A stretch of 64,000 nt of DNA from NCBI GenBank assembly GCA_949130485.1, contig OX422189.1:1621720-1685719 (forward strand), written 5' to 3'. The notes beneath the pieces were generated by a model. It worked only from the letters and a program-made list of their open reading frames with translations, was not told the DNA's origin and ran no database searches. This document shows positions 14,701-55,986 of this stretch, in pieces. Positions within the stretch are counted from its first letter, which is position 1; each line of letters opens with the position of its first letter. The position numbers were made by a program, and so were the translations under genes. The stretch is from Agelas oroides (taxonomy: Eukaryota; Porifera; Demospongiae; Agelasida; Agelasidae).

Positions 14701-14904
14701 AAAGGAAGGTAAGTGGGGAACAAGATGCTAAGAGAGATTTTTATAAACACATTTATGTTTGCTATGGTGATGCTGATTTTCAACAATAATCTCTATGGTA
14801 AAAGTTGTCGTATTTGTAATTCCGTCCAGTGCTTGGGGCAAGCCAAAGTGATCGATCAGTTGCTGATCGACAATGGAACAAAAAGATATCAATGTCTCAA
14901 AAGT

Positions 14905-15090
14905 GTTGTAAATGTGCTTTCAAGAATGGGTGAACATCAGAAGCAACTTTTGGGAGGCATAGCAGTTAAAGTTGCACGTGAATGATATTGTCGAAGAGCT
15001 TTTTGCAAATGCTATTCTTTACAAGCTCGATCATTCTTTGTGGCTGTACTAAAAAGGTTGAACTTGGTAGTGCATTACAAAAGATGCTAG
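14905..15090 (+). pseudogene. Decayed C-terminal fragment of cluster family
   Basis: 14905-14984 encodes VVNVLSRMGEHQKQLL and VAVKVARE-like residues, then frameshifts, and 15025-15090 encodes ARSFFVAVLKRLNLVVHYKR. Both match the C-terminal domain of the copy at 25755-26808 almost codon for codon, including the sequence after the stop (ACTATATCACCATTACC). It is therefore a tandem-duplicate remnant of the RING-TRAF family. No N-terminal part is visible upstream. Confidence 0.8.
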
Positions 15091-15261
15091 TAACTATATC
15101 ACCATTACCCTCATGCACACATGCAACATCTACTGACGGACACAGAAGTCTTGTTGTGTGCCTTTATATACTAGCTCTTTCAGCATCTTGTTCCCCACCT
15201 ATACCTTTGTTAATTTATGTTCTAATGTTGGCTAACCATCGTTTGTACTTTGTAGTATTTT

Positions 15262-16234: not shown

Positions 16235-17986
16235 TTACTGTCTTCGTCTATATTCCACTTCAAAATTCAGCTTTTTCAGTACAGCTATGAGAAGTGATCG
16301 AGCTTCAGCTGGGTTGTCAAGAATCATTCTTGCAAGAAGATGTTCCACAAAGTGAAGATGACGTTCACGCGCAACCTGGATTGCTGTACGTGCAACATGT
16401 TGTTTCTCCTTTTTATCCGTCCTCGAAAGTACACGTGCGGCACACTTACTGCGCTCAACAGCAAATTTTGCCCCTGACAATCCCCACACTACTGCACCAA
16501 CATAAACACCACCCATTATTTTGAGTCCAGTAACACTGCAAAAAGCAGCACCCATAAATGAACCTATAAATGCACCTATAAATGCACCTATAACTGCAAG
16601 GAAAATCAATCTGACTGCTGTATTTCTGAAATTGGACAAATAAATATCCTCATTTTTCAATGCAATATCCTCAAGGAGTTGAAAAATTGGCACATAGAAG
16701 ATGCTCTGCATGTCAACAACTTCAACCTCTACCTTTTCAAGTACTTTTGAATAAGCTGATTCCATGTGTGCTTCCAAATCCTCTATATGCTTCCTCTGTG
16801 ACTGAACATCTGCTCTTAGCCCTGAAATTTCCCCCTCTTTTAATGCTGATAATGCTGAAAGTCGTTCTTTCTTAACGCTTGCTTTCAGTTCCTTTGTTTG
16901 TTCCTTTATTTGTGACTGAATATCTCCTCTTAGCCTAGAAATTTCCCGCTCTTGTGACTGAACTTTTGCTTTTAGTGCTGATACTGCTGAAAGCTGTCTT
17001 CTTTCAATGTTTGCTTCCAATTCCGTTATTTGTTCCTTCTGGGACTGAATATCTTCTCTTAGCTCCAAAAGCTGCCTACTCTGTGCTTTGTTGTGCATAC
17101 TTAGCTCATCGATTACTTTACCTTTATCTGCCAACTTCTTTTTGAAGTGTGAGGCAACTGTACCAAGATGAGATGGCATGTTTTCACTTATATGTAGAGC
17201 CATATGTGTTCGAGGCCGACGAACTTGACAGCCAGTGTATTCAAACTCACAACCAATTACTTCAAGAGCACACTCTTCCCGAAGATGCTTATTGACCTTT
17301 CGGCGCTGAATTTTCCCTACACCACACTTGTTGGGGCATTCCACTGGGTATTTTTCACATTCACCATGATGTACACTCGTTATTAACTCCCATTTGTCTT
17401 TGAAGCCACAGTATTCACAGCTGTATGGGCGTGCAGGGCATGTGCTCTTATGATGAGACAAACTGTTTCGCAGGATGTATTCACTTTGACAGTAATCACA
17501 TGTTACTTCAACAAAACCACAAGAGACATCCAGATGCCGTTCAATGCTTCCAAGCTCACCTACCCATTCGCACCCATGACCACAGCTAGGACATTTGATT
17601 TTGAGTTCCTTCACTCTTCGAATGATCGACTTATCAAGCATGATATTGTAGTACTTTTCTTGGCAAAGGGGGCACGGTTTTCCTTCATTTTTAATGCGCC
17701 AAATGCACAATTGGCAGAAGTGGTTTCCACAACAATCGGTCAAGTTTGTATCACGCAAGACAGAGAGGCAAATGGAACAGATTAGCTCATCTGGCGGGTT
17801 GCTAACAAATTGATAATCGTAACCCCCACACCTGTCAGCATTCAGTTTCGCACGGGACCGGGCGCAACTATCATCAAATTGTCTTCTATCCACTGGAAGT
17901 TGAGGCGGTGTAGTTAGTTGCCTGGTAGTAGATTCTTTGTTCCGCTTGTATTTCCCCCGCTTCCCTGGCCGACTTTGGCGATCCAT
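16235..17986 (-). CDS. RING-TRAF zinc finger-coiled coil-C19orf12-like membrane protein (copy A, intact)
   Basis: Single-exon gene encoding 583 aa from the ATG at 17986 (MDRQSRPGK). An upstream in-frame ATG at 17995 adds three residues, but sister copies support the inner start. Residue numbers count from the 17995 ATG. A basic N-tail leads to a RING at 73-111 (CSIC...CCGNHFCQLC...CPLC). TRAF-type Cys/His fingers occupy about 135-268. A coiled coil with recurring VQSQ units spans about 281-420. Next come FQLLEDIALKNEDIY, then glycine-zipper hydrophobic segments (GAFIGAFIGSFMG), then a helical tail (EKQHVARTAIQVA, AVLKKLNFEVEY). The tail plus glycine hairpin resembles the C19orf12 family of membrane proteins of the ER and mitochondria. 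Inferred role: membrane-anchored ubiquitin ligase. It lies head-to-head with copy B, 860 bases away. Confidence 0.85.
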   Translation of the reverse strand: MDRQSRPGKRGKYKRNKESTTRQLTTPPQLPVDRRQFDDSCARSRAKLNADRCGGYDYQFVSNPPDELICSICLSVLRDTNLTDCCGNHFCQLCIWRIKNEGKPCPLCQEKYYNIMLDKSIIRRVKELKIKCPSCGHGCEWVGELGSIERHLDVSCGFVEVTCDYCQSEYILRNSLSHHKSTCPARPYSCEYCGFKDKWELITSVHHGECEKYPVECPNKCGVGKIQRRKVNKHLREECALEVIGCEFEYTGCQVRRPRTHMALHISENMPSHLGTVASHFKKKLADKGKVIDELSMHNKAQSRQLLELREDIQSQKEQITELEANIERRQLSAVSALKAKVQSQEREISRLRGDIQSQIKEQTKELKASVKKERLSALSALKEGEISGLRADVQSQRKHIEDLEAHMESAYSKVLEKVEVEVVDMQSIFYVPIFQLLEDIALKNEDIYLSNFRNTAVRLIFLAVIGAFIGAFIGSFMGAAFCSVTGLKIMGGVYVGAVVWGLSGAKFAVERSKCAARVLSRTDKKEKQHVARTAIQVARERHLHFVEHLLARMILDNPAEARSLLIAVLKKLNFEVEYRRRQ

Positions 17987-18299
17987 TGTCCACAACTCAG
18001 TGGCTCACCGTGCACGTGCCTCACGTTTCGCCCCACGCACTCGACGGAATTCCAAATATATACGCACGGGTGCAGCAGTGCATATCAACAGATTCAACCC
18101 ACCATGGTTTTGACTGTGATATCGTTGAAAATCAGCAGCATCACCATAGCAACATAAATACTAGCATTTGGGGGCGAACCTGAGTTTAGTGCATATGTAT
18201 CGCTACAGTATAGCCATAGATATAGCTATATCTTACCTGAAATATGAAAGTGTATGCAATGATTCCAAAACAGTATTTTTTATAAGAGCTCACATGAGC

Positions 18300-18848
18300 T
18301 CACCTAGGTAAGAAAGAAAGAAAAAAGTCGGACTGGGTTCGCTTGTCAATTTTACCAGGATCGGTACACTTTCCAGAACTGGTAAGATCACAAAAAATGG
18401 GCACGTGACCAAATATATTTACCCTAGCAGGTAAAATTTCCTTGTTCTTGTGACCACGAACCACTGCAAACAAGACTACCATAAAACGGCAGTGAGTAAT
18501 ACATTATAGGTCTTGGATGGTAAGTTCTTTTTGAAAACCAGGCCCATGGTTTTGTGTGTAAAGCCAGGGGCCACGTTTCAGGACTTTACCACTTCTGGGA
18601 AAGTGCAATGACCTTGTGAAAATTGCCTTGCAAACCCAAACCATCTGTGGTTTCATTTTTACCTGGGTGGGCTCTTATTTCAGGTTGGATACCCTATATA
18701 TATCTATTATGTAGCTGTGGCCCATAGCCTATAGTGCAAATCGGCCATTGCCATGCCAAATTTAATTCCCCGTCAAATTTTACGGCGGCATCTTTGAGGC
18801 GCCTTAATTAGACTACCCTCCTCCCTAGCCTCGTCGGAGAAAAGGGTT
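18300..18848. promoter_or_regulatory. Shared upstream region between copies A and B
   Basis: The 860 bases between the starts of copies A (17986, minus) and B (18849, plus) hold no gene. It would be a bidirectional promoter if both were transcribed, but B is a pseudogene. No core promoter element was identified with confidence. Confidence 0.3.
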
Positions 18849-19502
18849 ATGGCCCGTCGCCAAGGTCGCCAAAGTAAGCATGGGAAACACAAGCGGAACA
18901 AAGTACCTACCACATATACAGGCTCCTTTGTTGATACCGGTTCCTACCATGGGAAATATACTGCTGGTAGTGGGGGTTACGATTATGAATTTCTTAACAA
19001 CTGCCCCCCCCCCCCCCCCCCCCCCGATGAGCTTATCTGCTGCATTTGTCTTTCTGTGTTACGTGATCCAAACTTGACTAGCTGCTGCAGAAACCACTTC
19101 TGCCAGTTGTGCATTGGTCACATCCAAGTTGAAGGAAAGCCACGCCCCCTCTGCAAAGAACAGTACTACACTGTCATGCTCAATAAGTTGTTTGTTTGAA
19201 GAGTGAATGAGCTCAAAATCAAATGTCCTAGCTGTGGTCATGGATGTGAGTGGTTGGGTGAGCTTGCATGGAAACACTGAACGACATCTGGATGTTTCTT
19301 GTGGTTTTGTTGAAGTCCCGGATGAGCGAAAAGAAGAAACTACATGTAGCTATAGCAATCATATAGTGGCTCAGGAACACAAGCTTGACTTTGTAGAACA
19401 GATTCTTGTGAAAGTCATTCTTGACAACCCAGTTGAAGCTCGATCATTTCTCATGCCCATACTAAAAGGCTGAACTTTAAAGTGGAGTACAAAATGTACT
19501 GG
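18849..19502 (+). pseudogene. RING-TRAF family copy B, internally deleted
   Basis: The start (MARRQGRQSKHGKHKRN), RING (CCICLSVLRDPNL...CCRNHFCQLC) and part of the first TRAF finger are present. There is an in-frame TGA at 19197-19199 where sister copies have CGA (Arg), and a one-base insertion near 19270. At about 19317 the sequence jumps straight into the C-terminal domain (DERKEE... to VEARSFLMPILK), so the coiled coil and membrane hairpin are deleted. The two prolines before the RING are expanded to seven by a poly-C tract at about 19004-19025. The end was read through a further frame change to about 19502. Confidence 0.85.
19004..19025 (+). repeat. Poly-C tract inside copy B
   Basis: About 22 consecutive C residues encode a proline run just before the RING in copy B. 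The intact copies have only PP at this place. Confidence 0.9.
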
Positions 19503-19504
19503 TA

Positions 19505-20045
19505 ACTATAAGTATGCATGTAGTGTCGTTCACCCTCTATCCGCACATACAAACATAATTAGCCTTTTAGCTGTTTGTGTTCATGTGTGTTGTGTTCAAT
19601 CCAGAATTGCCCTTTGTATTACGTTTGATGTTTTGCTGTGTTGAATGTTGGTATATTACCAGCTCTTTTTATGGGTGTCGTATAGCTTACAGTACATCTA
19701 CATGCATGCATATAGTGATCAGCCTCAGCCCTAGCTACAATTTGCAGATGTAAACATGCAAATGTGAACGGAACTTTGGTATTATTTTAACATGCATGAA
19801 TTTCTTGTGATCATCGTACTGCTTCTAAACAATCAGTAGGGTTCTCAGTTGGCTCCTGCATAAAATGGTCCGATTTTAAGTTGGTAACAGAGAACCTTCT
19901 ACTCCTAAACGTTTTGATGATGTGTAGCTAACTAAGTAAGAATACCCAGTACAAAAGAAACAAACACTCACCAAACAATCACCATTATGAAAGTAGTTTG
20001 CAAACTGCTTGGCGTTCAAAACAATTTTTGTGCTTAAAAGAAAAC
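19505..20045. other. Duplicated 3' flank of copy B
   Basis: No gene. The segment from about 19840 is a diverged direct copy of 32050 onwards (shared CTCAGxTGGCTCCTGC and GATTTTAAGTTGGTAA), showing that the duplicated unit extends past the RING-TRAF copy. Confidence 0.6.
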
Positions 20046-20310
20046 ATTTAGGTGAGAGTCTAAGTGCTCCTGAATATGTTGAAACCTGTCTCGTCCCATG
20101 TAGTCAATCCTTCCCGTTTCAAAAGCTGTGGTGCTCATCTGGGTCGCCTGAGGCTGTGGGATGGTCCTGAGGCACTCCTTGGTCCTGAACGAAAGGTGGT
20201 AGTGAAAAGGGCACTGAATCAGAGCTCACTGGCTGATTAGCTACATCACTTTCAGTGCAAACTACCGATATGATTGGTTGGTGTACATGAATGAGGCCCA
20301 CTTAAGGCAT
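20046..20310 (-). pseudogene. Duplicated last exon of glycogenin, frameshifted
   Basis: The minus strand reads [36 protein letters not shown] and then DPDEHHSF, where a small deletion shifts the frame. Beyond it, GRIDYMGRD and [10 protein letters not shown] follow in the other frame. This is nearly identical to the real glycogenin terminal exon at 32279-32545. No other glycogenin exon is nearby, so it is a stranded duplicate carried with the neighbouring cluster copy. Confidence 0.8.
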
Positions 20311-20339
20311 AGAGTGAGAAAAGGGATAGAGAATTAGTT

Positions 20340-20530
20340 CAGAGCATAATTCTTATTTCCATACTGCAAGCGACGGAAAAGCTGGGCGGGGCCTGGGAAC
20401 GAGGCTAACTAGGAGGCGGAATGCTGGAGTGCACGGTGAACGGTTAGTCATGAGTGATCTTACTACGGTCTCGTTCCCAGGTCTTCCCTCCATTGCTTGC
20501 AGTAAGCAAAAACACAAGCGATCAAAAACC
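20340..20530. repeat. GCCTGGGAACGAGGC/CTCGTTCCCAGG repeat pieces
   Basis: Contains GGGCCTGGGAACGAGGCTAA near 20388-20407 and CTCGTTCCCAGGTCTTCC near 20470, both ends of the TAGCCTCG-type TIR family scattered over the window. The second piece recurs at 32705 in the duplicated segment. Confidence 0.6.
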
Positions 20531-20779
20531 GAAGCATTGGAAGTCCTTGGAAGCCAGTAATTTACAGTGGTATGTAAACTGAACAAACACATCAAAGTTG
20601 CTTACTCAGCATCAGGAATGAACGGGGTCATAGCTTCGGGCCTTGTTCTAAATATGCATGATAATAATTATCTCGCATGATTGTTAGATCACATATCGTG
20701 GACCGGATAGGCGCGGTTTCGTGCTCGCAGTCGTCGATGTACCGGACCATAAATAATCCTACTACACTATGGATGGACA

Positions 20780-21309
20780 ATGATCCGCCAAGGTCATCGA
20801 GGACGGCGTGGGAAACAAAAAGGTAACAAAGCACCTACTAAGCAGCTAACTGTGCCGACCATAGATGAGCCGACTATACAGCCCCAACCTACGGTAGATA
20901 CTTTTACAATAAGGCATTTTAACGGTGTTGCTCCAGTTCTGAACGTTGGTGCGGACGAATTCTATTCCGGTTCCTTTGGTGCAGCCAGGAAACCTGATGA
21001 CAAAAATGGGGGTTACGATTATGAATTTGTTAGCAACCCCCCTGATGAGTTGATCTGTTCCATTTGCCTTTCAGTGTTACGTGATCCAAACTTGACTAGC
21101 TGCTGTGGAAACCACTTTTGCCAGTTGTGTATCTCTCGCATCAAAAACGAAAGAAACCCGTGTCCCCTGTGCCAAGAACAGGACTATGCTGTCATGCTTG
21201 ATAAGTTCTTCGTTCGAAGGGTAAAGGGACTCAAAATCAAATGTCCTGGTAACAGTCACGGATGTGAATGGGTAGGTGAGCTTAGAAGCATTGAAAGACA
21301 TCTGGATGT
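20780..21309 (+). CDS. RING-TRAF family copy C, 5' half, interrupted
   Basis: Start MIRQGHRGRRGKQKG at 20780. The RING reads CSICLSVLRDPNL...CCGNHFCQLC...CPLC, and the first TRAF finger follows (IKCPGNSHGCEWVGEL). The frame is intact up to the codons for HLD, where a Ty3/gypsy element is inserted. Removing the element and one copy of its 5-bp target duplication joins this half in frame to 25755-26808, giving 527 codons plus stop. As it stands, translation runs a few codons into the LTR and stops, leaving RING and one partial finger. The gene is therefore a very recent null, or an allele that is intact in other individuals. Confidence 0.85.
21305..21309. repeat. 5-bp target site duplication, left
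   Basis: GATGT immediately left of the 5' LTR; the same GATGT is at 25750-25754 right of the 3' LTR. Five bases is the usual Ty3/gypsy length. Confidence 0.95.
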
Positions 21310-21514
21310 TGTAGTGATGTCACTGTTCTATTGTTACTGTTCTATACTTAGTTATGTATGCACGTGATTCATGAGTATTTAAGTCTGGGTTTGTACAGTT
21401 TTATCAGTTCTCTCGAGTCTCTGTAGTTCTCTCTTGTTCTCTCTAAAGTCTCTCTTGTACCCAGTTATTACAGTGATTGCAACTGAACCCACATTTTAGT
21501 AGTAGGTTACTACA
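21310..21514 (+). repeat. 5' LTR
   Basis: 205 bp, TG...CA ended, identical by eye to the 3' LTR. It contains TATTTAAG near 21377 as a possible TATA-like element, then a run of TCTCT-rich sequence. Confidence 0.95.
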
Positions 21515-21556
21515 TTGGCGACGAGAGGTCGGATCGATACGAGAGACTCCCGAACT

Positions 21557-24500
21557 ATGGCGATACAGTTCGGTCATGTGGGCGAATTCGAGGAAGGTCG
21601 CGAGGAATGGACACAGTACGCAGAACGCCTCGGACACTTCCTGACGGCTAACGGAATCACCGACGGGGAAAAGAAACGAGCCGTGTTTCTGTCTGTGATT
21701 GGCCCCAAGGCGTACAAGTTGCTTGGGAGCCTGATCGCGCCGGCCAAACCGGGCGACAAGACGTACGAAGAGTTAGTCGAGGTGATGACGCAGCATCACA
21801 ACCCACCGCCCTCCGAGATTGTACAGAGGTACAAGTTCCACACACGGCAACGACAGCCGGGAGAGACGATTGCAAAGTATGTATCGGAGTTGCGCTCGCT
21901 GGCGCAGACGTGTCGATTCGGAACGACACTCGAAACGATGATTCGAGACCGCCTCGTGTGCGGAGTGAACAACGACCTCATTCAGCGTCGACTATTGTCA
22001 GAAACAGAGCTGGGCTTAAAGAAAGCTCTGGAGTTGGCGCTGGGAATGGAGACCGCAGCAAAGAACGTTCGTGAACTGCAAGGTACGAGACGTGCAGCGG
22101 AACCGCAGCTGCATAAAGACGTGTGCAAAGTTCAGCGTGAGGTCATGAATAATTGTTACAGGTGTGGAAAGCAAAACCACAAGTCCGCCCAGTGCCCATT
22201 CAAGACTGCCAGGTGTCACAACTGTGGCAAAGTAGGCCATATAAGGAAAGTTTGCAGACAACCAAAGAGACCACCCACTTCTCAAGGGAGACAGACACCA
22301 AGACACCCTGTCAGGACAGTGCAGGAGGGAGTTGAGGACCCTAATGAGCTTTCATATGTCTTGCACACCCTCAGAGCTCAGACTGGCCAACCTCTGGAAG
22401 TGGACTTAATGTTAGATGGAAAGCCACTGTGTATGGAGGTTGACACTGGAGCTGCCGTGTCATTGGTGTCGGAGAAGACATACCGGAGTCTGTTTCCAGA
22501 ACGTCACTTGCAGCCTTCAAAAGCCTGTTTGCGTACATACTCAGGAGAGTCAATTGCAGTGATAGGACAAACAGAAGTGGAAGTGTGTTATGAGGAACAG
22601 CGAGTGAAGCTTCCTCTGCTGGTAGTCAAGGGTGAAGGTCCAAGCTTGTTTGGACGAGATTGGCTGACAAAGATCCGTCTCGACTGGAGAGCGATCAACG
22701 CAGTGAAATGCGGAACATTAACCAGTGTGTTGGAGAGCTACAGCTCAGTGTTTGAGTCAGGCCTTGGAACATTGCAGGGATACGAGGCCAAGATTCATGT
22801 TGACCCTGGAGCTCAGCCGAAATATTGCAAAGCACGTTCAGTCCCTTATGCCATGAGGGGTAAAGTCGAGGAGGAGTTAGAGCGCCTCGTGAGCGAAGGC
22901 ATTATCGAGCCTGTTCAGTTTGCTGATTGGGCAGCTCCAATTGTGCCCGTAGTGAAGAGCGACGGGAAGTCCCTCCGAATCTGTGGTGATTTCAAACTCA
23001 CCGTGAACCAGGCCTCAAAACTTGACAGATACCCCATCCCAAAGGTCGAGGATCTCTTTGCGAAGCTCGCAGGAGGAAAAGCTTTCACAAAGCTTGATAT
23101 GTCTCAAGCGTATCAGCAGCTGCTACTTGACAAGGAATCCCGAAAGTATGCAGTCATTAACACGCACCGTGGGTTGTTCCGATACAACCGACTCCCATTC
23201 GGAATCTCTTCGGCCCCGGGGATTTTCCAAAGAGTGATGGAGTCCATCCTCAGCGGTATTCCAGGTGTAGTCGTCTACATTGATGATGTCTTAGTGACTG
23301 GAAAGTCTGAAGCGGAGCACCTGTCCGCGCTGGAGGAAGTCCTCCGCAGGATCATGGAATCTGGACTCAGACTGAGGAAAGACAAGTGTGTGTTTCTGGC
23401 TCCATCTGTTGTGTATCTGGGACATCAGATTGACTCAGAGGGTTTGCACCCTGTTGCAGAAAAAGTCAAAGCAGTGCAGGAAGCACCTGCTCCAAAGAAT
23501 GTCACCGAGTTGAAGTCATATCTCGGGCTGCTGACCTACTATTCAAGATTTCTGCCAAATCTGTCATCAGAACTCGTGCCGCTCTACAAGCTGCTAAAGT
23601 ACAGTGAGCCATGGCATTGGACTTCAAGGCAAAAGAAGGCCTTTGAGAGATCCAAAGAATTACTGCTGTCGTCGCAGTTGTTGGTTCATTTTGATCCAAA
23701 CCTGGAGATTCACCTAGCCTGTGATGCATCATCATACGGTATCGGGGCAGTGTTGTCACACAAAATGCCAGATGGGTCTGAGAAACCCGTGGGATTCGTA
23801 TCCCGTACACTGACAGATGCCGAAAAGAAGTACTCTCAAATTGAGAAAGAGGGGCTAGCGTGTGTGTATGGAGTGACGCGTTTCCACTCATACTTGTTTG
23901 GACACCACTTCAAGCTGCAGACTGATCATAAGCCTTTGCTAACACTCTTCAATGAAAGCAAAGCAGTTTCGCCTCAAGCATCAGGCAGAATCCAACGTTG
24001 GGCATTGACCCTAGCATCGTATGAATACACAATTGTGTGCCGAACAACAACACAACATGCGAATGCAGATGCTATGAGCAGGTTGCCACTCCCGGACATT
24101 CCAGTCCAGACACCTGTTTCAGGAGAACTAGTGCTGATGGTTGAAAGATTGGAAGATGCCCCCATCTCAGCAGCACAGATAGCAACGTGGACACGACGAG
24201 ATCCCTTGCTGTCGAGAGTGCTCCGTTACATCAGGGAAGGATGGCCAGACAGTGCAGACATTGAACTGAAACCGTATTGGATGAGACGTCTGGAACTAAT
24301 TGCCCATGATGGATGCATCGTGTGGGGAGGGAGAGTAGTGGTCCCACCACCGGGCCGAGAAAGTGTGCTGGTTGAACTCCATGGAGGACACCCTGGTACA
24401 TCACGAATGAAGTCGCTTGCTCGAGGTCTGGTGTGGTGGCCAGGAATGGATCAGGAGATCGAGAACATGGTCAAACAGTGTTCAGACTGTCAACAAAGTC

Positions 24501-25495
24501 GACCGTCTCCTCCCACAGCACCACTACATCCATGGTGTTGGCCGACCCGACCCTGGACACGGTTACATGTGGACTTTGCAGGTCCAATGGAGGGGAAGAT
24601 GTTCTTAATAGTGATTGATGCTCACTCAAAGTGGATTGAAGTCTTTCCCATGGCAACAGCTACCGCCTTGACAACCATCCAGCGACTGAGACAGTTGTTT
24701 GCCCAGTTTGGAATTCCAGAATCTATTGTGTCGGATAATGGTCCACAGTTTGCTGCAGCCGAGTTTCAAGAGTTTTGTCGATTGAATGGAATTCGTCACA
24801 TTCGAGTTGCACCGTATCAGCCTTCGTCTAATGGATTGGCTGAAAGAGCTGTACAAGTGTTCAAACAAGGATTTCGCAAGTCATCGATGGGTACTCCGAG
24901 TGATCGAATAGCAAGATTTCTGTTCCAGTACAGAATCACACCACATACGACCACTGGTCTGTCACCTGCTGAAATGTTGTTGGGCAGGAACCTCCGCTCA
25001 AGATTGGACTTACTTAAGCCAAATTTAGAGCAGAAAGTTGCTGAGAAGCAGAGAAGGCAACAGTTCGACCATGACAAACATTCCAGAATGCGTCAGTTCT
25101 CTGATGGTGAAAAAGTGTTTGTTAAAAACCAGGGCAGAGGAGAAACGTGGTTGCCTGGTCATATCATAGAGAGTTCAGGACCAGTGTCATTCAAAGTTCA
25201 ATTGCAGGATGGCAGAACAATTAGCCGCCATCAGGATCACTTGAGAAAACGATTCACAGAGGATCCAGAACAGTCTGATATTCCTCTTTGTGAGGATGAT
25301 ATGGACATTGCAATTGGTGCTAGTGGAACGACTACCACTACCAGTGCTACATCCTCAGAACAGGACAGAACGCCAGTTGGGCAGGGGACACTGCCAACTG
25401 TTGAACAGGACAGTGAAACTGTTACACCACTACCTGAGTCTGCTATGACTCGTCGTTACCCCTCTCGAACGAGAAAGCCACCAGAGAGATATTGA
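21557..25495 (+). CDS. Gag-Pol polyprotein of Ty3/gypsy element
   Basis: One frame of 1312 aa from the ATG at 21557; the frame is open from the LTR end at 21515. Order of domains: capsid-like gag; two CCHC zinc knuckles at about 200-213 and 220-233; aspartic protease with DTGA at 296; reverse transcriptase with YIDD at 574-577; RNase H (LACDASSYGIGAVLSH); integrase with an HHCC finger; catalytic Asp 1006, Asp 1060 and Glu 1096 (35 residues between the last two). The domain order RT-RNaseH-IN is that of Ty3/gypsy. No stops or frameshifts are seen, so it may be active. Fusion of gag and pol in one frame means there is no programmed frameshift. The C-terminal tail is Thr/Ser-rich. Confidence 0.95.
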   Translation: MAIQFGHVGEFEEGREEWTQYAERLGHFLTANGITDGEKKRAVFLSVIGPKAYKLLGSLIAPAKPGDKTYEELVEVMTQHHNPPPSEIVQRYKFHTRQRQPGETIAKYVSELRSLAQTCRFGTTLETMIRDRLVCGVNNDLIQRRLLSETELGLKKALELALGMETAAKNVRELQGTRRAAEPQLHKDVCKVQREVMNNCYRCGKQNHKSAQCPFKTARCHNCGKVGHIRKVCRQPKRPPTSQGRQTPRHPVRTVQEGVEDPNELSYVLHTLRAQTGQPLEVDLMLDGKPLCMEVDTGAAVSLVSEKTYRSLFPERHLQPSKACLRTYSGESIAVIGQTEVEVCYEEQRVKLPLLVVKGEGPSLFGRDWLTKIRLDWRAINAVKCGTLTSVLESYSSVFESGLGTLQGYEAKIHVDPGAQPKYCKARSVPYAMRGKVEEELERLVSEGIIEPVQFADWAAPIVPVVKSDGKSLRICGDFKLTVNQASKLDRYPIPKVEDLFAKLAGGKAFTKLDMSQAYQQLLLDKESRKYAVINTHRGLFRYNRLPFGISSAPGIFQRVMESILSGIPGVVVYIDDVLVTGKSEAEHLSALEEVLRRIMESGLRLRKDKCVFLAPSVVYLGHQIDSEGLHPVAEKVKAVQEAPAPKNVTELKSYLGLLTYYSRFLPNLSSELVPLYKLLKYSEPWHWTSRQKKAFERSKELLLSSQLLVHFDPNLEIHLACDASSYGIGAVLSHKMPDGSEKPVGFVSRTLTDAEKKYSQIEKEGLACVYGVTRFHSYLFGHHFKLQTDHKPLLTLFNESKAVSPQASGRIQRWALTLASYEYTIVCRTTTQHANADAMSRLPLPDIPVQTPVSGELVLMVERLEDAPISAAQIATWTRRDPLLSRVLRYIREGWPDSADIELKPYWMRRLELIAHDGCIVWGGRVVVPPPGRESVLVELHGGHPGTSRMKSLARGLVWWPGMDQEIENMVKQCSDCQQSRPSPPTAPLHPWCWPTRPWTRLHVDFAGPMEGKMFLIVIDAHSKWIEVFPMATATALTTIQRLRQLFAQFGIPESIVSDNGPQFAAAEFQEFCRLNGIRHIRVAPYQPSSNGLAERAVQVFKQGFRKSSMGTPSDRIARFLFQYRITPHTTTGLSPAEMLLGRNLRSRLDLLKPNLEQKVAEKQRRQQFDHDKHSRMRQFSDGEKVFVKNQGRGETWLPGHIIESSGPVSFKVQLQDGRTISRHQDHLRKRFTEDPEQSDIPLCEDDMDIAIGASGTTTTTSATSSEQDRTPVGQGTLPTVEQDSETVTPLPESAMTRRYPSRTRKPPERY

Positions 25496-25544
25496 ACTCT
25501 CATGTGCTGTTTCTTTTTGTTTTTGTTTTTTAGGGGGAGAGGAA

Positions 25545-25749
25545 TGTAGTGATGTCACTGTTCTATTGTTACTGTTCTATACTTAGTTATGTATGCACGT
25601 GATTCATGAGTATTTAAGTCTGGGTTTGTACAGTTTTATCAGTTCTCTCGAGTCTCTGTAGTTCTCTCTTGTTCTCTCTAAAGTCTCTCTTGTACCCAGT
25701 TATTACAGTGATTGCAACTGAACCCACATTTTAGTAGTAGGTTACTACA
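25545..25749 (+). repeat. 3' LTR
   Basis: 205 bp, identical by eye to 21310-21514, preceded by the purine tract at about 25532-25544. Confidence 0.95.
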
Positions 25750-25754
25750 GATGT

Positions 25755-26808
25755 GTCTTGTGGTTTTGTTGAAGTTACTTGTAATTACTGCCAGAATGAA
25801 GACATCCTACGAAAGAGTTTGTCTCTTCATAAGAGCATATGCCCTGCACGCCCATACAGATGTGAATACTGTGGCTTCAAAGACAAATGGGAGTTCATAA
25901 TGAGTGTGCATCATAGTGAATGTAGAAAGTACCCAGTGGAATGCCCCAACAAGTGTGGTGTAGGAAAAATTCAGCGCCAAGAGCTTGATAAGCATCTTCA
26001 GGAAGAGTGTGCTCTTGAAGAAATTGGTTGTGAGTTTGAGTATGCTGGATGTCCAGTTCGTTGGCCTCGAACATACATGGGTTTACATCTGAGTGAAAAT
26101 ATGTCATCCCATCTAGATATGGTTGTTTTGCACTTCCAAAAGAAGTTGACAGAAAAAGATACAGTAGTAAAGACACAAACTGGACAACTTTCAGCATTAT
26201 CATCATTCAAAGCTAGAGTTTGGTCACAAGAGAGGGAAATGTCTAGACTAAGAGCAGAGGTTCAGTCACAGAATGAGCTAATAGAGGAGCTAGAATCAAA
26301 CAATGATTCCCTTTCAAGAGAACTTGATAAGATGAAGCTTGAAGCTATAGCTAATGATACACAAAGTGCCTTCTGTGTGCATGCTGTTTTTCAGCTCCTT
26401 GAAGATATTGCATTGAGAAACCGTGATATTTGCGTGTCCGACCCAATAAGAGACAAAGCAACTGGCATGTTAGGTGTAGTTGGAGGTGCTGCCCTTGGTG
26501 GTAATGCTGCACGTGAAATGGGACCAGTTGGTGTTGTGGTTGGTGCAGTACTTGGTGGCTCGATTGGGGCTATAATGGGCTTTGGTTCTACTGAATCTGA
26601 ATGTGCTGTAAATGTGCTATCAAGAATGGGTGAGCATCAGAAGCAACTTGTGGCAGGTGTAGCAGTCAAAGTTGCACGTGAATGCAATCTTGATGTAGCC
26701 GAACAGATTTTAGCAAATGCTATTCTTTACAACCCAGCTGAAGCTCGATCATTCTTTGTGGCTGTGCTGAAAAGGCTGAACTTAGCAGTGCATTACAAAA
26801 GACAGTAG
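25755..26808 (+). CDS. RING-TRAF family copy C, 3' half
   Basis: Continues the interrupted gene from VSCGFVEVTCNYC. TRAF-type fingers (CPARPYRCEYCGFKDKW, ECPNKCGVGK) are followed by a shorter coiled coil than in copy A, FQLLEDIALRNRDI, and a very clear glycine-zipper hairpin (GVVGGAALGG...GAVLGGSIGAIMG). The helical tail is EHQKQLVAGVAVKVA to AVLKRLNLAVHY. The best C19orf12-like match in the cluster is here, because the glycine-rich segment and tail have the same order and spacing as in that family. The polypeptide has no start codon of its own next to the LTR, although LTR-driven transcription from 25545-25749 could express it. Confidence 0.85.
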
Positions 26809-26819
26809 TAACTGTATCA

Positions 26820-27094
26820 CCATTACCTTCATGCATCACACTGATCAAGTTCGGATGACAGGCACGAAGGGCTTGTTATTGGTGTTTGTGAGCTGTGATT
26901 TGCTTTATACTTAGCTCCCTTAGCCACCTACTTTTTCTGATGTCATTATGCATGGTTATGCATGTATGGCAAGATTCATGTGAATTACACGCTCGTTCCG
27001 TTCCGTTCCGTTCCGGGTTTTACTAATACCCTTTTGTCACATGACTGTTTGAGTAGCAATAGCAGTCTTGAAAAGGGTGAAATAGAGCTTGGAC
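26820..27094. other. 3' flank of copy C
   Basis: No gene. It includes a short CGTTC pentamer run (about 26994-27014). Confidence 0.5.
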
Positions 27095-27550
27095 ATAAGG
27101 TAGATGCTGGTATTATGAGCCAGCTAAGCTGAATTATACTGCTCATTAGTGTAGTTTATTTTTCAGTCGCAGCTAAAGGATTGAAACATTTCTCCAGAGA
27201 ATGTACGGCTTATAAAATAAGTTTCCCTGTAAGCAGAGGTTGTAAAAGAAAGAACCTATGTAAATCACTCTTGCATGTATTATGAGTCAACTGCTGATAT
27301 TATGAGTCACCAGGTGCTTTGTTGATTGAAACATTTTCAGTTGGAGTTCCAACTGTACTCTAGCATTGCACAACCTGTCTTTGTTCTGATGGTCATTTAT
27401 CTTGACTAAAGCACCTTCAGTCCACCATGGTATTATACACTGTTTAAGATTCATAATGTGGCACCCTAAAGGAGTTAAAGTTATATGTGGACCCATAATA
27501 CCCTCTGACTCATAATACCCTCTGACTCATAATACCAGCATCTACCTTAT
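27095..27550. mobile_element. Hairpin-ended MITE (TAAGGTAGATGCTGG)
   Basis: 27095-27121 and 27524-27550 are inverted copies of ATAAGGTAGATGCTGGTATT. GACTCATAATACC is repeated near the right end. No coding sequence. Confidence 0.7.
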
Positions 27551-27557
27551 TTTCCGC

Positions 27558-27667
27558 TAGCCTCGTTCCCAGTCCTCCCTCGTTTTTGTTCTTCGGTTTA
27601 CGTTCAGCCGCTCTTCCGCGTATTATACTGAACGTACAAAAACGGGAGAGGCCTGGGAACGCGGCTA
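27558..27667. mobile_element. TAGCCTCG-type short TIR element
   Basis: Begins TAGCCTCGTTCCCAG and ends CCTGGGAACGCGGCTA, with an internal inverted CAAAAACGGGAG motif. It is a member of the dispersed family described at 36854. No clear target duplication is visible here. Confidence 0.6.
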
Positions 27668-27876
27668 GCTTAAGGAGTTGTAAAAGCACTTAGACACAAT
27701 TCCTCGGAGAGCGTGCAACCATGCAACAGGTAATTCAAGAGTGCAACCTGATTACATCATCCAGCCGCTAATTGCATTCCGGTGGGACACGACCTGTATA
27801 CACAGCTTTCCTTTATTTGCGGAAGTGGGTCGGGCTTGCGAGACCAGGTTTGTACGCTGGCGCTATCCCGCTTGGT

Positions 27877-28176
27877 ATAGTCTAAGTTCACCCGGTTTGA
27901 AACCGTTTCCTGTTACGTCACTTTAATAACTATTTATGTTCAGTCGCGCTGCCGTAGGTTAAATACATTAGACCATACAGCATGGTGGTCGCCAGAAGCA
28001 GCTCATTGGCTAAATGGGTAAAGGTTAGAGTTAGGGCTAGGGTTAGGGTTAGGGCTTGGGCCAGGGAATGCAATAAATCTTTTTTTTTTTCCTTCTGGTC
28101 TTACAAAATGTTATTTGCTTCGGTAGCCTCTTATAAGATGACGTAAACGGTTTCAAACCGGGTGAACTTAGTCTAT
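27877..28176. mobile_element. MITE containing telomere-like repeats
   Basis: The inverted arms share CTAAGTTCACCCGGTTTGAA and AACCGTTT near 27880-27913 and 28143-28175. Its centre (about 28022-28058) holds several GGGTTAG/AGGGTTAGGG units like vertebrate-type and many invertebrate telomere repeats. Confidence 0.65.
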
Positions 28177-28357
28177 CCCTATCTCGCTTGCCCTGCCGGA
28201 GTGATCTGGGGAGCGGCACACTTTTCGTTCACACGTGCGTAATCAATCTGTCAATCAACCAACCTAACTTACGTGTAGCTACAACGTTAGCGTGGCGTCC
28301 TCTCATGTAATCTGGTATCAATGATTGGTTTCAGAATAAGTACAACCGTTACTACAG

Positions 28358-28429
28358 GTAAGACCATAGATAATATACCTCCTCCCACAAGCCACAAGCA
28401 ACTTCGGGGAGGAGGTATATTATCTTAGC
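28358..28429. repeat. Short palindromic repeat
   Basis: AGATAATATACCTCCTCCC on the left and its near complement GGGAGGAGGTATATTATCT on the right enclose a short loop. Confidence 0.7.
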
Positions 28430-28561
28430 CTCGTTCCCAGGCTCTCCCCTCGCCCCGACGAAAAATATAAACGGAGGGAGAGAGCCTGGGACCGATTCGC
28501 ACGTGATATCGCGGCACGACGACTTTGCACTAACCATTAAATAACCTGAAACGTCACTCAT

Positions 28562-29487
28562 ACAGATGTGAATACTGCGGCTTCAGAGACAAATGGGAGT
28601 TCATAACAGGTGCACATCATAGCGAATGTGAAAATTACCCAGAGGAATGCCCCAACAGGTGTGGTGTTGAAGGAATTACACGTCAAGAGCTCGATAAGCA
28701 TATTAGGGAAGAGTGTACCCTTGCAGAAGTTGGCTGCGAGTTTGAGTATGTTGGTTGTCAAGTTTGTGGGCCTCAAGCATATATCTGAGTGAAAATGTGG
28801 CATCCCATCTTGGTATGCATGGTTGCCTCTCACTTCGAAAGGAAGTTGGCAGAAAAATATAAAATAATAGTTGAGCTAAGAAAGTATAACAAAACACAGA
28901 GTAAGCAGACACTAAGAGCGAGGGAAATTTCAGAATTAAGATCAGATGTTCAGTCACAGAGAAAGCAAATAGAGAAACTGGAAGCAAATCTCAAATCTTA
29001 TTCAGGAGCACTTGAGGAGATGGATGTTGCTGTTGGTAAATTCTGGATTATCTTCTATGCACAAATTTTCCAGCTGCTTCAGAACATTGCATCGAGAAAT
29101 GGCGACATTTATGTGTCCAACTCCAAAGACGATGAAACAATTGGCATGTCAGGTTTGGTTGTAGGTGCTTCTCTTGGATTTATTGCTGGACATAACATAA
29201 TGGGACCAGTTGGTAGTGTTTTTGGTGTACTATTATGGGGATGGGTTGGAGCAAAAGTAGCTTTTGCTTATGGTAAGTCTGTTGCAATTGTGCTGTCAAT
29301 GATGGATGAAAGGGAGAAGCAACATGTGGCACGTATAGCAATCCAAGTTGCACATGAACGTCATCTTGACTTTTTGGAAGAGATAATTGTAAAAGCCATT
29401 CTTGACAACCCAGATGAAGCTCGATTCTTCCTTATTACTGTACTAAAAAGGCTGAACTTTGAAGTGGAATTCAAAAATTATCCATGA
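28562..29487 (+). pseudogene. RING-TRAF family copy D, 5'-truncated
   Basis: Sequence similarity begins abruptly inside a TRAF finger (YRCEYCGFRDKWEF at about 28560) with no RING upstream. After PQAYI a stop interrupts the frame (about 28785), and a four-base insertion near 28820 restores the downstream frame. From about 28831 (MVASHFERKLAEK) the coiled coil, FQLLQNIASRNGDIY, a hydrophobic glycine-rich hairpin and the tail (EKQHVARIAIQVA to VLKRLNFEVEF) are intact to 29487. The downstream frame alone would give a 220-aa membrane protein resembling copy E, so it is not certain that it is dead. Confidence 0.75.
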
Positions 29488-29489
29488 AA

Positions 29490-30290
29490 GACAAACATGA
29501 ACATTATTTAGTCTTGTTTTCTATAAGATATGTGTGCACATTTGGTCAAATGAATTTGCCCTTAGCATCTACTTACATAACTGTACTTTATTGTCACAAC
29601 TTTCCACATCACTAACTTTTGTGTACTATTTCCTCATCACAGCCCCCACCCAAAATTTCATAACTTATACCCGTGTAATTTAACCATTGTAAATGATGAC
29701 TGATCATCCTCAGCAGCTAGGAGGGTAGCATAATCATTCTAGCCAGTGAAAGGTGGTGGTGAAAATGGCACTGAATCATAGCTTATTGGTTGACCAGCTT
29801 CCAGTATGCTAATCTAACCCTAATTCTCCACATTTGTATACTCAAAGCAATCAAACACTAATTGAAGGTGGCGAAGGCCTGGGAACGAGGAAAGAGATAA
29901 AGTGAGGTGAAAATTTTTTATTTCCATGAAAAGTTGCAGAGACAATAGTAAGCTACAACTGCATGAACAAAAGAGGACCGGGTGTGCAGCTAGATGGATC
30001 TATAGGTTGGAAGCATGTATAAGCTTCACAAGATATATACAATAAAAAAAAACTATTGGTAGCTAGGAACCTAAAATTAATGTGAAGTTTCACAATAAGA
30101 GGAACAAAACAGGAAGTCACACAATAGAAAGTGTGGAGATAGGTGCATATGAGCAAATAATGCAAGGCAATATGTAAAAGCTGAATCTTGAGAGTATGCA
30201 TGACCTGTACACATATTAGCTAGATGAGATGTCTGGTCTGAATTGAAGCGGCAAGCTAGATGTTGAGTCTCACCACTTGACCCAGGGCCG
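29490..30290. other. Intergenic between copies D and E
   Basis: No supported gene. A GGCCTGGGAACGAGG end of the TAGCCTCG family sits near 29876-29890. Confidence 0.45.
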
Positions 30291-30317
30291 AGCTAGTTTT
30301 GCGGAAATGTTCCAGAA

Positions 30318-30650
30318 TTAATGTCTAATCCCATCCCAGAATGTCTAATCCCAAAATGTCTAATGCCAAAATGTCTCACCAAGTACTAATTAGAACTGTA
30401 CCATGAGGATCTACTTAGAATGTTTAATCAATGTCTCTTGCAATTCTCTTCTGTTTGTTTGGGGTCCACTGTGGGCTACTATGCCCACAGTGGACCCCAA
30501 ACAAACTACTATGTTCCACATACGTGGTCTAAACTGCCCATTCATCCAGGTTTCGTCGAAATAATCAGAGTAACTCTGCACCTTACTATTATCTGGCATT
30601 AGACATTTTGGGATTAGACATTCTGGGATTAGACATTCTGGGAATGACTC
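30318..30650. mobile_element. Hairpin element with perfect 24-nt core stem
   Basis: The outer arms repeat AGAATGTCTAATCCC on the left and GGGATTAGACATTCT on the right, each about two to three times. The centre is a perfect inverted repeat, arms 30453-30476 and 30483-30506, with a six-base loop. It lies about 100 bases upstream of copy E. Confidence 0.75.
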
Positions 30651-30755
30651 AGTTTTGCATGCCAGATCCATTCCGCGATCCGTTCGCAACACGTAACGTC
30701 ATTTTCATGATTGGTGTGTAGGCCGGCCAGTGGACGTCTTGACGATCGATGAACA

Positions 30756-31523
30756 ATGGATAGGCGGGCGAGGTGGAGTAAACACAAGCGGAGCGAAGAA
30801 CCTGCTGTCGACGACCTCTATGCAGCCAACGGTAAACCTACCGAGAGGAGTGGGGCTAAAGAGGAAGTAGTTGATGAGCTAAGAATGTGCAACAAAACAC
30901 AGAGTAGACAGCTTTCAGCACTAAAAGCAAGTGTTCAGTCACAAGAAATGAAAATTTCAGGACTAAGGGAAGAAGTTCAGTCACAGAGAAAACAAATAGA
31001 AGAAATGGAAGCAAAGATGGAAAGTAGTGTACGAGAGAAGGTGGAGGTTGAAGTTGTTGACATGCAAAGCAACTTCTACAAGCAAATTTTCCTACTCCTT
31101 GAGATTATTGCATTGAGAAATGATGACCTTAAGATGCCCAATCCCAATAGAAGTACAACAACAATGTTAGGTGCAGTTGGAGGTGCTACTGTGGGTGCCC
31201 TTACCATTGGTGGTATTTCTGGACATGAAGAAACCGAACCTGCTATTGGTGGTGCACTAGTCGGGGGATCAATTGGGGCACTAGTAAGCTTTGCTTTGGG
31301 TAAGCCTAAAAGTATTGCTAGTGTGCTTTCAAAGATGGATGAAAAAGAAAAACTACACATGGCACGTATAGCAGTCAAACTTGCACGTGAACGTAATCTC
31401 GACTTTGCGGAACAGATTCTTGCAAAAGCCATTCTTGACAATCCAGCCAAATCTCGGTCATTTCTCATAGCTATACTCCAAGTCAAAAAACTGAACTTTG
31501 AAGAGTACAGCTACTTTATGTAA
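30756..31523 (+). CDS. RING-less coiled coil-C19orf12-like protein (copy E)
   Basis: 255 aa, intact. The N-terminus MDRRARWSKHKRSEEP matches the basic tail of the RING-bearing copies, and the conserved AACAATGGAT context supports the start. It then passes straight to the coiled coil (QSRQLSALKASVQSQE, QRKQIEEMEAKME), skipping RING and all TRAF fingers without losing frame. The membrane part is intact (MLGAVGGATVGAL, GGALVGGSIGALVS). The tail is MARIAVKLARERNLDF to AILQVKKLNFEEY. Likely role, inferred: a partner or competitor that can oligomerise through the coiled coil and sit in the same membrane without ligase activity. Confidence 0.8.
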   Translation: MDRRARWSKHKRSEEPAVDDLYAANGKPTERSGAKEEVVDELRMCNKTQSRQLSALKASVQSQEMKISGLREEVQSQRKQIEEMEAKMESSVREKVEVEVVDMQSNFYKQIFLLLEIIALRNDDLKMPNPNRSTTTMLGAVGGATVGALTIGGISGHEETEPAIGGALVGGSIGALVSFALGKPKSIASVLSKMDEKEKLHMARIAVKLARERNLDFAEQILAKAILDNPAKSRSFLIAILQVKKLNFEEYSYFM

Positions 31524-32278: not shown

Positions 32279-35200
32279 CTAATCTTCATTTAGGTGAGAA
32301 TCCAAGTGTTCTTGAATACGTTGAAAGCTGTCTCGTCCCATGTAGTCAATCCTTCCCGTTTCAAAAGCTCTACGGTGCTCATCCAGGTCGCCCGAGGCCG
32401 TGGGGTGGTCCTGAAGCACCCCTTGGTCCTGAGGCACCTCTTGGTCCTGAACGAAAGGTGGTGGTGAGAGTGGCACTGGTGAAAAGGGCACTGAATCAGA
32501 GCTCACTGGCTGAGCAGCTACATCACTTTCAGTGCTAACTACATACGATTGGTCGGTGTACACGAATGAGGCCCACTTAAGGCATAGAGTGGGGAAAAGG
32601 ATAGAGAATTAGTTCAGAGCATAACACATGATACTTATTCTTGCCTACTGCTAACAGCAATAATCAATAGGAGGAATGTTGGAGTGAACTGTTAGTCATG
32701 AGTGATCTTAGTCTCGTTCCCAGGTCTTTCCTCCATTGCTTGCAGTATGCAAAAACACAAGCAATCAAAAACTGAAGCCATGGGAATGAGGTTAGTATGA
32801 TCTAGTGATACCATACTGCAGTCCTTCAAATCTCTGAGTGCATAGCTTGGCAAAAAGTACCCACTCTGTGCCAGCTGTTATTGTTGCTACACATGCTTTG
32901 TAAAAACTAAGGGGAAGCCTAATCACAAGATTAGATTGCAAACAACTATAATAGGCTAATGATGGTGAAATTGCAAAGGTTTCTCACCTATTATATGTGC
33001 TGATGAAATTGATCAAACTTTGGCTCAGAACTAGTTGGTAGTTGAGGAAATGGAGAGGGAATGAGCACAATCCAGAGTTACTAGAACATTTTGGGGGCGA
33101 GCCTGATGCTACTATGGCTACATGCACATGAATAGATGAGCTGAATCCGGCTAGCGGTTATGAGTGTCGTTTATGCACGACCCTTACCTGAAGTAATCTC
33201 AACCTGGCGTGTATAATTTGTACGGTCTGCGAGCAGCCTGCCGTTGATGGTCAGTCCGTAGCTGCTGTGACAAACAAGAAGTAAGGTTCCGAGTGTGCTT
33301 AAACTTGAGCCGTCTCCGCTACAATTGCCAACGCTGCACTCTGGAAGTACCTACTAAGTGCAATTTTCGGGAAATATTTAAATGCGCATTTAAAATTTAC
33401 AGTATATGGCTGCAAGCAAGCACGTACGTACATTACAAACATACTTCCGCAACGCAGTCCCACTAGTGTGGGGCTCGCTCAGGCTCACCCCAATAAAAGT
33501 CTAGTTGTGCTATCAACTCATGTAGAGGATGGAGCAGTGAGCCATTTAGCTAAGGTAAACTAGCACTGAACTTTCAGGTCACTGGGAGCATCTTGGGGTG
33601 TGGTTTAGGTAACTACAACTAAACCTTTACTAGTTACTAAAACTGTAACCAAGATTAAAACAAGACTGTGGGAACAAGACTAAGGCTTGTAAAGTTGATT
33701 TCTTGGGAACTGATGCCGACTGAAAATTCTTGAAGACGTGACATGACGTACCTGTACCTGTTCTGTGCTGAGGTAGACATGCCACCATTGTCTGATGAAG
33801 TCTTGAGCAACACTCTGTGAGGAGTAGGTGCCAGGGGAGATGATGACCGTGTCCACCTCACGAAGATAGCGATGCTGCCAGGGCTTCACTGGACCAATGA
33901 AATGAATGATCTTTGCATTTCTACCGAATCTGGTGTGACAGTCGTAAAAGTTGAGAGCAGGGAGAGATCAGGAAGAGCCATAGTGCAAGTTTTTATATGA
34001 GTCTCTAATGTTATACTTAATGCACCTTTATACTTAATGCTGATGTACTGCAAAGAGAGTTTAGCGGAGATGCATTGGGAGGAGGTCTACAAGAAGAGTT
34101 GGCTTTGTCTTAGACTATCAGTCTACCATAGATCGGGAAATTTCCACCTTAAAAATAATTCATGTAAAAAAATTTTCATGGTGTTAAATTTTCGTGGTTT
34201 CGTTTGATCCGCGAAATTTTTTTAACAGTTGACAGTTACAATATGGATGAGCACCTGGAGAGTTCCTAGCGTTTGGTCTACTACCAGGTATCAAGAGAGC
34301 CAGGTATCGCTGGTTGTAGTCATTGATCGGACATTTACCTCGGGGGGTGTGGACTTCACACGCACGCTTATTCATTGATCATCGCCACGTAAGTTTTATT
34401 TTCGCGTATTAAATTTTTGCGGTTGGTCTCAACCGCAAAATTATTTTAACAGCGAAATTTTCCCGATCTATGGTATTACTTAGTACTAAGTAATACCAAG
34501 ACTTTATTACAGTTTATTACAGTAAGAGTGTGCAATGGTTTCTACACCCGCCATCTGGACAGTATGACGTAGTAATCAGCAGTGAATATACTAAGCTGTA
34601 AAAACACAACAGCAAAGAGGTGGGCCTTTGCTACAGAGTTCACTCAGCTAATGTACACTAGCACCTGCTATATACCGTATTTCTTCGAATAGACGCGGCC
34701 CTTGAATAGTAGCAGCGGCTAGTATACGCGGCACACGCACATGTATGCGAATAATTTCTGACGACGGTCAATGGGCTAGCGCTAGGGCTGTTTGTGTTGT
34801 ATGACTCGTTTCCACATACCTTATCCAGCCATCACTGATGTCGGCGCGCTTTCCAAAGAAATAAATGCCGCCCTCGAACAGTAGCCGCATACAGACAGGC
34901 AGTGAAAAAAATAGTAGCCGCGGCGTCTGATCGAAGAAATACAGTAAGTATTATTCACTGCTGATTGCCTACATCATAACTGTCCAGATAGCAGGTGTAG
35001 AAATCATATGGGAGTTGCACACTGTTAATGTAATATACTCTTGGTAATAGACTGGGACCAGAATAAGTAGCCACAATAAAGAAGAGGCTGCCTTTAACAG
35101 TGACAGATTTCATAAGTCTCCTAGCTCACCCTCAAGATAATCTACCACTAGGTGAATGTAGGACATTGTGGGGGCAAGCCTGGGTGAGTGCAAGCCTGAG

Positions 35201-49618: not shown

Positions 49619-55986
<6,368 letters not shown>

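Follow-up and report, generated by a model that had tools for sequence, protein, structure and literature searches.

We analysed a window of 64,000 nucleotides from the sponge Agelas oroides (GenBank assembly GCA_949130485.1, contig OX422189.1, positions 1,621,720 to 1,685,719 of the forward strand; coordinates below are positions in this window), in which copies of one gene family span about 14.9-31.5 kb. The family joins a RING and TRAF-type zinc fingers to a tail resembling the membrane protein C19orf12. Only copy A is both intact and full-length within the window, because copy C is split, D lacks a RING and contains a stop codon, E is short, and B is broken. Copy A (16235-17986, minus strand) encodes 583 amino acids counted from an ATG at 17986, within a stop-free frame of 589 codons (16235-18004, minus strand) whose chance expectation at the base composition of the window is about 1e-10. 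Its product runs, in order, through a basic tail, RING, TRAF-type fingers, predicted coiled coil, glycine-zipper hairpin, and helical tail; the architecture proposed by an earlier sequence-only reading of this DNA is thus confirmed in a single frame, with Pfam and PDB matches along it.

The head of copy A (P0001 in the protein database) is that of a TRAF. The outermost zinc-ligand cysteines of the RING (residues 70-108; 17663-17779, minus strand) bound a complete ligand pattern, and the four best Pfam RING models match it at expectation values (E) of 1.8e-4 to 1.1e-3, none reaching its cut-off. The zinc fingers (residues about 130-265; 17192-17599, minus strand) match the zf-TRAF model PF02176 in two stretches, best at residues 206-265 (E 4.1e-18 to 5e-18), and the closest solved structure is the RING and fingers of TRAF6 (E 1.9e-13). 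Coiled-coil Pfam models match family proteins at sub-threshold scores only, ahead of the C-terminal domain. That domain, the 161-residue C19orf12-like tail (16238-16720, minus strand), was identified from tail alignments, hhalign, and comparison of a consensus with the Pfam family PF20721. The sequence-only reading saw the RING and fingers of a putative ubiquitin-ligase head, but missed its identity as a TRAF without the usual MATH domain.

The same architecture, which that reading had proposed to seek elsewhere, recurs in other proteins. A database search with copy A, with scoring limited to the 7,995 candidates sharing the most words, listed 89 proteins; among the matches listed, 22 further proteins carry both fingers and tail, and one distant protein, P0032, likewise shows RING, TRAF fingers, and tail. 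Two separate genes misread as one can be ruled out, copy A being a single frame and fingers and tail occurring together in those 22 proteins. PF02176 is found in all 24 of P0001-P0024 and a MATH model in none; the tail is present in P0001-P0023, while P0024 stops before it. A strict RING ligand pattern is kept by 21 of the 24, 20 of the 23 with tails, and 19 of the 22 excluding copy A; of the three exceptions, P0017 and P0022 have late starts and P0023 departs from the pattern. P0002-P0023 are 42-84% identical to copy A over 79-99% of the query (54% for P0004). The other 65 of the 89 comprise 61 with PF22486 or PF21355, which we take to be MATH models, three in which both MATH and the tail go unmatched, and P0032; a TRAF4-like protein of Halichondria panicea (P0064) is among the matches listed. 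P0001, P0005, P0012, P0015, and P0101 may derive from one common genome.

The remaining copies in the window are on the plus strand. Copy B (18798-19473), recognised by sequence comparison, consists of a RING piece and a tail piece, damaged by a stop, frame changes, loss of a RING cysteine, and a deletion. Copy C, which the sequence-only reading had counted with A as full-length, is instead split by a long terminal repeat (LTR) retrotransposon: its 5' part (20780-21309) holds the basic tail, RING, and first finger, and ends in one GATGT duplication (21305-21309), whereas its 3' part (25750-26808) begins with the other (25750-25754) and holds fingers, predicted coiled coil, and tail (26344-26805). 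Two Pfam RING models match copy C above their cut-offs. The inserted element (21310-25749, plus strand; 4.44 kb) has LTRs at 21310-21514 and 25545-25749, identical at 205 of 205 positions, a 5-bp target duplication, and a gag-pol-type frame (21506-25495) with protease, reverse transcriptase, and RNase H models matched in two pieces; on either side copy C resumes the same frame (HL, DV, SCGF). P0015 is an uninterrupted, near-identical counterpart of copy C: 345 of 351 residues agree in one aligned stretch, and 154 of 161 in another that has 17 gap positions. It may be an allele or a paralogue. Because this uninterrupted counterpart exists, the insertion is recent or copy-specific; the element, with its identical repeats, is young. 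Copy D (28534-29487) has no RING; its fingers are separated by an in-frame stop from a predicted coiled coil and the tail (29032-29484). Copy E (30756-31523) is an open frame of 255 residues in which a basic tail is followed by a predicted coiled coil and the C19orf12-like tail (31053-31520); RING and fingers are absent. Fragment F (14900-15117), a broken tail whose DNA is 89% identical to copy C, lies beyond the coordinates first reported for the family. The tails of C, D, and E are 49-52% identical to that of A. Non-coding direct repeats (20045-20540 and 32287-32783, about 12.2 kb apart; 81-95% alike in several blocks) flank copies C to E.

Copy E has counterparts. When four tails of this window served as queries, 17 proteins were returned, including the RING-less P0091 (which is copy E), P0093, and P0098. 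P0093 and P0098 resemble copy E in lacking RING and fingers but retaining the basic tail, a predicted coiled coil, and the C19orf12-like domain. From this composition, such RING-less, finger-less members may be dominant-negative partners of the full-length proteins.

All compared pairs of window copies have ratios of nonsynonymous to synonymous substitution (dN/dS, NG86 method) below 1 (0.23-0.86), though by a small margin in pairs that include a broken copy. Copy A against the 5' part of C gives 0.23 and against its 3' part (C3) 0.50; over the fingers, A-D gives 0.44 and C3-D 0.49; further pairs are A-D 0.55, C3-D 0.86, A-E 0.58, C3-E 0.47, and D-E 0.67; and tails alone give A-C 0.49, A-D 0.57, A-E 0.64, C-D 0.75, and C-E 0.51. 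A decaying local expansion of mostly pseudogenes, its fused protein serving no selected function, would fit the ratios, which climb to 0.75 among the tails and to 0.86 between C3 and D, and would fit the breakage of copies B, C, D, and F in the window, which also counts against the functional reading preferred below. We nevertheless consider such decay very improbable: copy A is open, its relatives P0002-P0023 are long, similar to it, and mostly complete in their RING pattern, and the ratio across the 5' part of A and C is low.

The tail matches PF20721 collectively better than it does singly. Below the curated Pfam cut-off of 30 bits, the model finds copy C (E 8.4e-4, 19.6 bits), copy D (4.1e-3), 15 of the 24 proteins P0001-P0024 when E is allowed up to 10 (8e-5 at best), P0032 (0.01), and also P0090, P0094, and P0101; it does not match P0091 or P0100, and appears neither in the complete list of Pfam families matched by copy E nor among the best 25 of 29 for copy A. 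For a consensus of 38 tails, PF20721 is the best family (E 1.4e-6, 28.6 bits) and the runner-up a glycine-zipper family (0.025), so the consensus gives no better hit to an unrelated family, one of the outcomes that the sequence-only reading had named as fatal to its proposal. Among the proteins found with copy A and with the window tails, a hidden Markov model of C19orf12 detects 26 of the 41 that have a tail and none of the 65 that do not (E up to 10, 226 sequences).

Profile comparison extends the likeness over most of the domain. We gathered C19orf12 proteins by searching with a human sequence (665 found, the best 120 taken, vertebrates as far as named) and built a profile from the 88 of at most 160 residues; hhalign E-values refer to a single comparison, and scores and controls are quoted instead. 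Tail positions 10-149 align with C19orf12 positions 20-153 over 129 columns, with 97.3% probability and a score of 70.6 (68.7 and 97.1% with P0032 left out); the best of 60 column shuffles reached 20.6, and a reversed C19orf12 profile 31.4 on 26 glycine-rich columns. When the profile was split, the part after the hairpin scored 21.7 (18% probability; 100 shuffles at most 17.2), the part before it 15.9 (12%; 100 shuffles at most 12.1), and both flanks with the hairpin removed 22.4 (9%; 100 shuffles at most 17.8). These tests indicate that the hairpin holds much of the C19orf12 signal and that the flanks contribute in the correct, collinear order. A hydrophobic hairpin stretch was present in 10 of 10 family proteins tried, and a GP-turn pattern, chosen after the alignment, is shared by 105 of the 120 C19orf12 proteins and 14 of the 41 proteins with the tail, and is absent from 64 others. 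On P0107, Gly58 begins the GP turn of C19orf12, with Gly42 and Gly54 upstream within the hairpin; Gly58 is mutated in patients (PMC12384588).

Several results weigh against the identification of the tail, and with it against the functional reading developed below. No scanned natural protein reaches the PF20721 cut-off, the highest being P0013 at 22.9 bits, and the flanks by themselves exceed shuffles but attain only 9-18% probability. DUF6861, placed mostly on the hairpin, outscores PF20721 in P0009, P0011, and P0016, three of the ten members scanned in detail; in P0006, PF20721 is missing and DUF3482 (PF11981) covers coil and tail (residues 366-516, E 3.1e-5, sub-cut-off). In structure prediction, an AlphaFold model of the tail from 33 sequences (mean predicted local distance difference test score, pLDDT, 62), which includes the tail of copy C, shows helix, strand, helix, hairpin, four helices, and strand, but its hairpin residues 36-82 have pLDDT below 50, undermining fold comparison, and a control model of C19orf12 from 20 vertebrates (pLDDT 39), again with four helices after the hairpin, is too weak to compare. 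Foldseek with the tail model returned 7 matches, none below E 0.001.

Some of these weaknesses would be expected if the tail were a generic glycine-zipper hairpin flanked by unrelated helices, in which case the proteins would be membrane ligases derived from TRAFs and would resemble C19orf12 by convergence; glycine-zipper models, like DUF6861, do match the hairpin, and even the reversed profile finds its glycine-rich columns. Against convergence stand the collinear alignment, flanks that each exceed all their shuffles, the wide gap between PF20721 and the runner-up for the consensus, and the reach of PF20721, listed in nine of the ten proteins scanned in detail, to profile positions 108-126, past the hairpin. 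We judge convergence unlikely. The claim that the tail is C19orf12-like is thus partly supported: homology survives the attempt to refute it at the level of consensus and profile, from a signal that is heavy in the hairpin and below the Pfam cut-off in single proteins. Other identities were considered and set aside. The models of bacterial glycine-zipper families end at the hairpin, as does DUF6861 in P0009, P0011, and P0016, though it extends further in P0013; and the best PDB sequence match to the tail is a dehydrogenase at E 0.14.

The origin of the head was examined in a tree of 232 columns from 81 of the 89 proteins found with copy A. The 23 fused proteins form a single clade (support 97) whose sister is the MATH-bearing P0025-P0028 (support for the pair 100). 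Because the fused heads nest among RING-TRAF-MATH proteins, MATH was probably replaced by the tail in a lineage of TRAF-type ligases. P0032 complicates a single replacement. Its tail aligns well with that of the family (98.8%, score 99.9; 100 shuffles at most 24.0) and by itself matches C19orf12 weakly (27%, score 27.7; shuffles at most 18.8), while its head groups with a MATH protein, P0037 (support 93). Placement of P0032 inside the head clade of the 23 is rejected by the approximately unbiased (AU) test (p 0.0025; computed on 72 of the 81 rows of the tree, with 9 excluded as distant or long-branched). For this test the group was defined from architecture in advance of the tree, but testing came after P0032 had been seen apart, and long branches may attract. 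Because the head of P0032 falls elsewhere, the fusion may have arisen twice, or once with a subsequent exchange of heads.

We suggest, with somewhat better than even confidence, that the family comprises TRAF-derived oligomeric ligases in which MATH has been swapped for a C19orf12-like domain that tethers them to an organelle membrane, probably for innate signalling. The sequence-level basis is the architecture, the family, the relationships of heads and tails, and the placement of the heads among proteins that carry MATH; from it we infer ligase activity, membrane insertion, localisation, pathway, and the role of the short copies. As in TRAF6, dimers would form through the RING and first fingers, which would also bring in a ubiquitin-conjugating enzyme (E2), and the predicted coiled coil would oligomerise the protein. 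Anchoring would come from the glycine-zipper hairpin, predicted to enter the endoplasmic reticulum (ER), mitochondrial, or lipid-droplet membrane from its cytosolic face. Because the tail occupies the position of the receptor-binding MATH of TRAFs, recruitment would be by membrane, and the ligase would be gathered by the state of the membrane or by clustering of hairpins in place of a receptor tail. The most likely output would be ubiquitin signalling at the organelle surface in an innate response, of NF-kB type or antiviral, with RING-less copies such as E co-oligomerising and damping the signal.

Work on flies and on a sponge offers parallels. The fly C19orf12, Nazo, is an antiviral factor induced through STING-IKKbeta, and in S2 cells its overexpression reduces, and its silencing increases, replication of picorna-like viruses by a mechanism described as unknown (PMC9127187; PMC12384588). 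In a sponge exposed to lipopolysaccharide, genes annotated TRAF2, TRAF5, and TRAF6 are among the altered TNF-pathway genes, most patterns varying between replicates (PMC8242945). A bolder proposal, which we hold as doubtful, is that MATH was exchanged at least twice for a C19orf12/Nazo-type domain. The NF-kB signalling ligase would thereby have been joined to an antiviral effector that flies keep as a separate protein induced by STING/NF-kB, giving membrane sensor and signaller in one protein, and C19orf12 would belong to an immune pathway of ancient animal origin.

The chief competing account keeps the fusion but has it serve quality control of organelles or lipid droplets, marking organelle proteins for turnover instead of acting in immunity. 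Published work lends this some substance: C19orf12 is placed at the ER, mitochondria, their contact regions, and the cytosol, and may connect lipid droplets with mitochondria (PMC12384588), and Nazo maintains lipid droplets in germ-free flies too, independently of microbes (PMC10883546), a further point against an immune role. The head, in turn, is a TRAF head, and a multicopy family with RING-less and broken members would fit turnover driven by conflict better than housekeeping. TRAFs act chiefly in immune and stress signalling, which counts against quality control as well; the function of C19orf12 itself is unsettled, which counts against signalling. We regard quality control as possible, if on balance unlikely, and retain membrane-tethered innate signalling as the preferred interpretation.

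Set against known systems, the fused proteins share with the TRAF family (TRAF6; P0025-P0028) the order of RING, TRAF-type fingers, and (as predicted) coiled coil, and heads that nest together, but carry a C19orf12-like membrane domain where TRAFs carry MATH. With C19orf12 and Nazo they share an N-terminal helix, a glycine-zipper hairpin with a GPxG turn, and C-terminal helices in the same order; their tail, however, is divergent and joined to a ligase head, whereas C19orf12 stands alone at about 150 residues. RINGs are held at the ER or mitochondria by a membrane segment of their own in MUL1, TRIM13, and TRIM59, whose heads and membrane segments both differ from a TRAF head with a C19orf12-like domain. 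In agreement with the sequence-only reading, we found no description of a TRAF- or RING-C19orf12 fusion in the titles and abstract openings of the open-licence literature, among the matches listed. Two papers there use both C19orf12 and TRAF as whole words, in the contexts of amyotrophic lateral sclerosis genetics and of mitochondria and autophagy, and a term search of the available part of an eLife survey of immune domain architectures gave no mention of C19orf12 or Nazo (PMC8195603). This suggests that TRAF-derived ligases with a C19orf12-like membrane domain are an apparently undescribed combination. C19orf12 is mutated in mitochondrial membrane protein-associated neurodegeneration (MPAN), a human disease of brain iron, and its role is largely undefined; the fusion is a Rosetta-stone clue that would tie its domain to membrane-based ubiquitin signalling, fits what Nazo does against viruses in flies, and makes the link testable. 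A TRAF that trades its receptor-binding domain for a membrane domain would also illustrate a possible route to receptor-independent signalling.

Beyond the family, the window contains a tandem array of 16-bp units (35116-35398) and exons of three ordinary-looking genes: one of glycosyltransferase family 8 (36282-36680, minus strand), one with a GPR180/TMEM145 transmembrane domain (53112-53489, plus strand), and one with a sub-threshold L7Ae-type match (57835-58389, minus strand).

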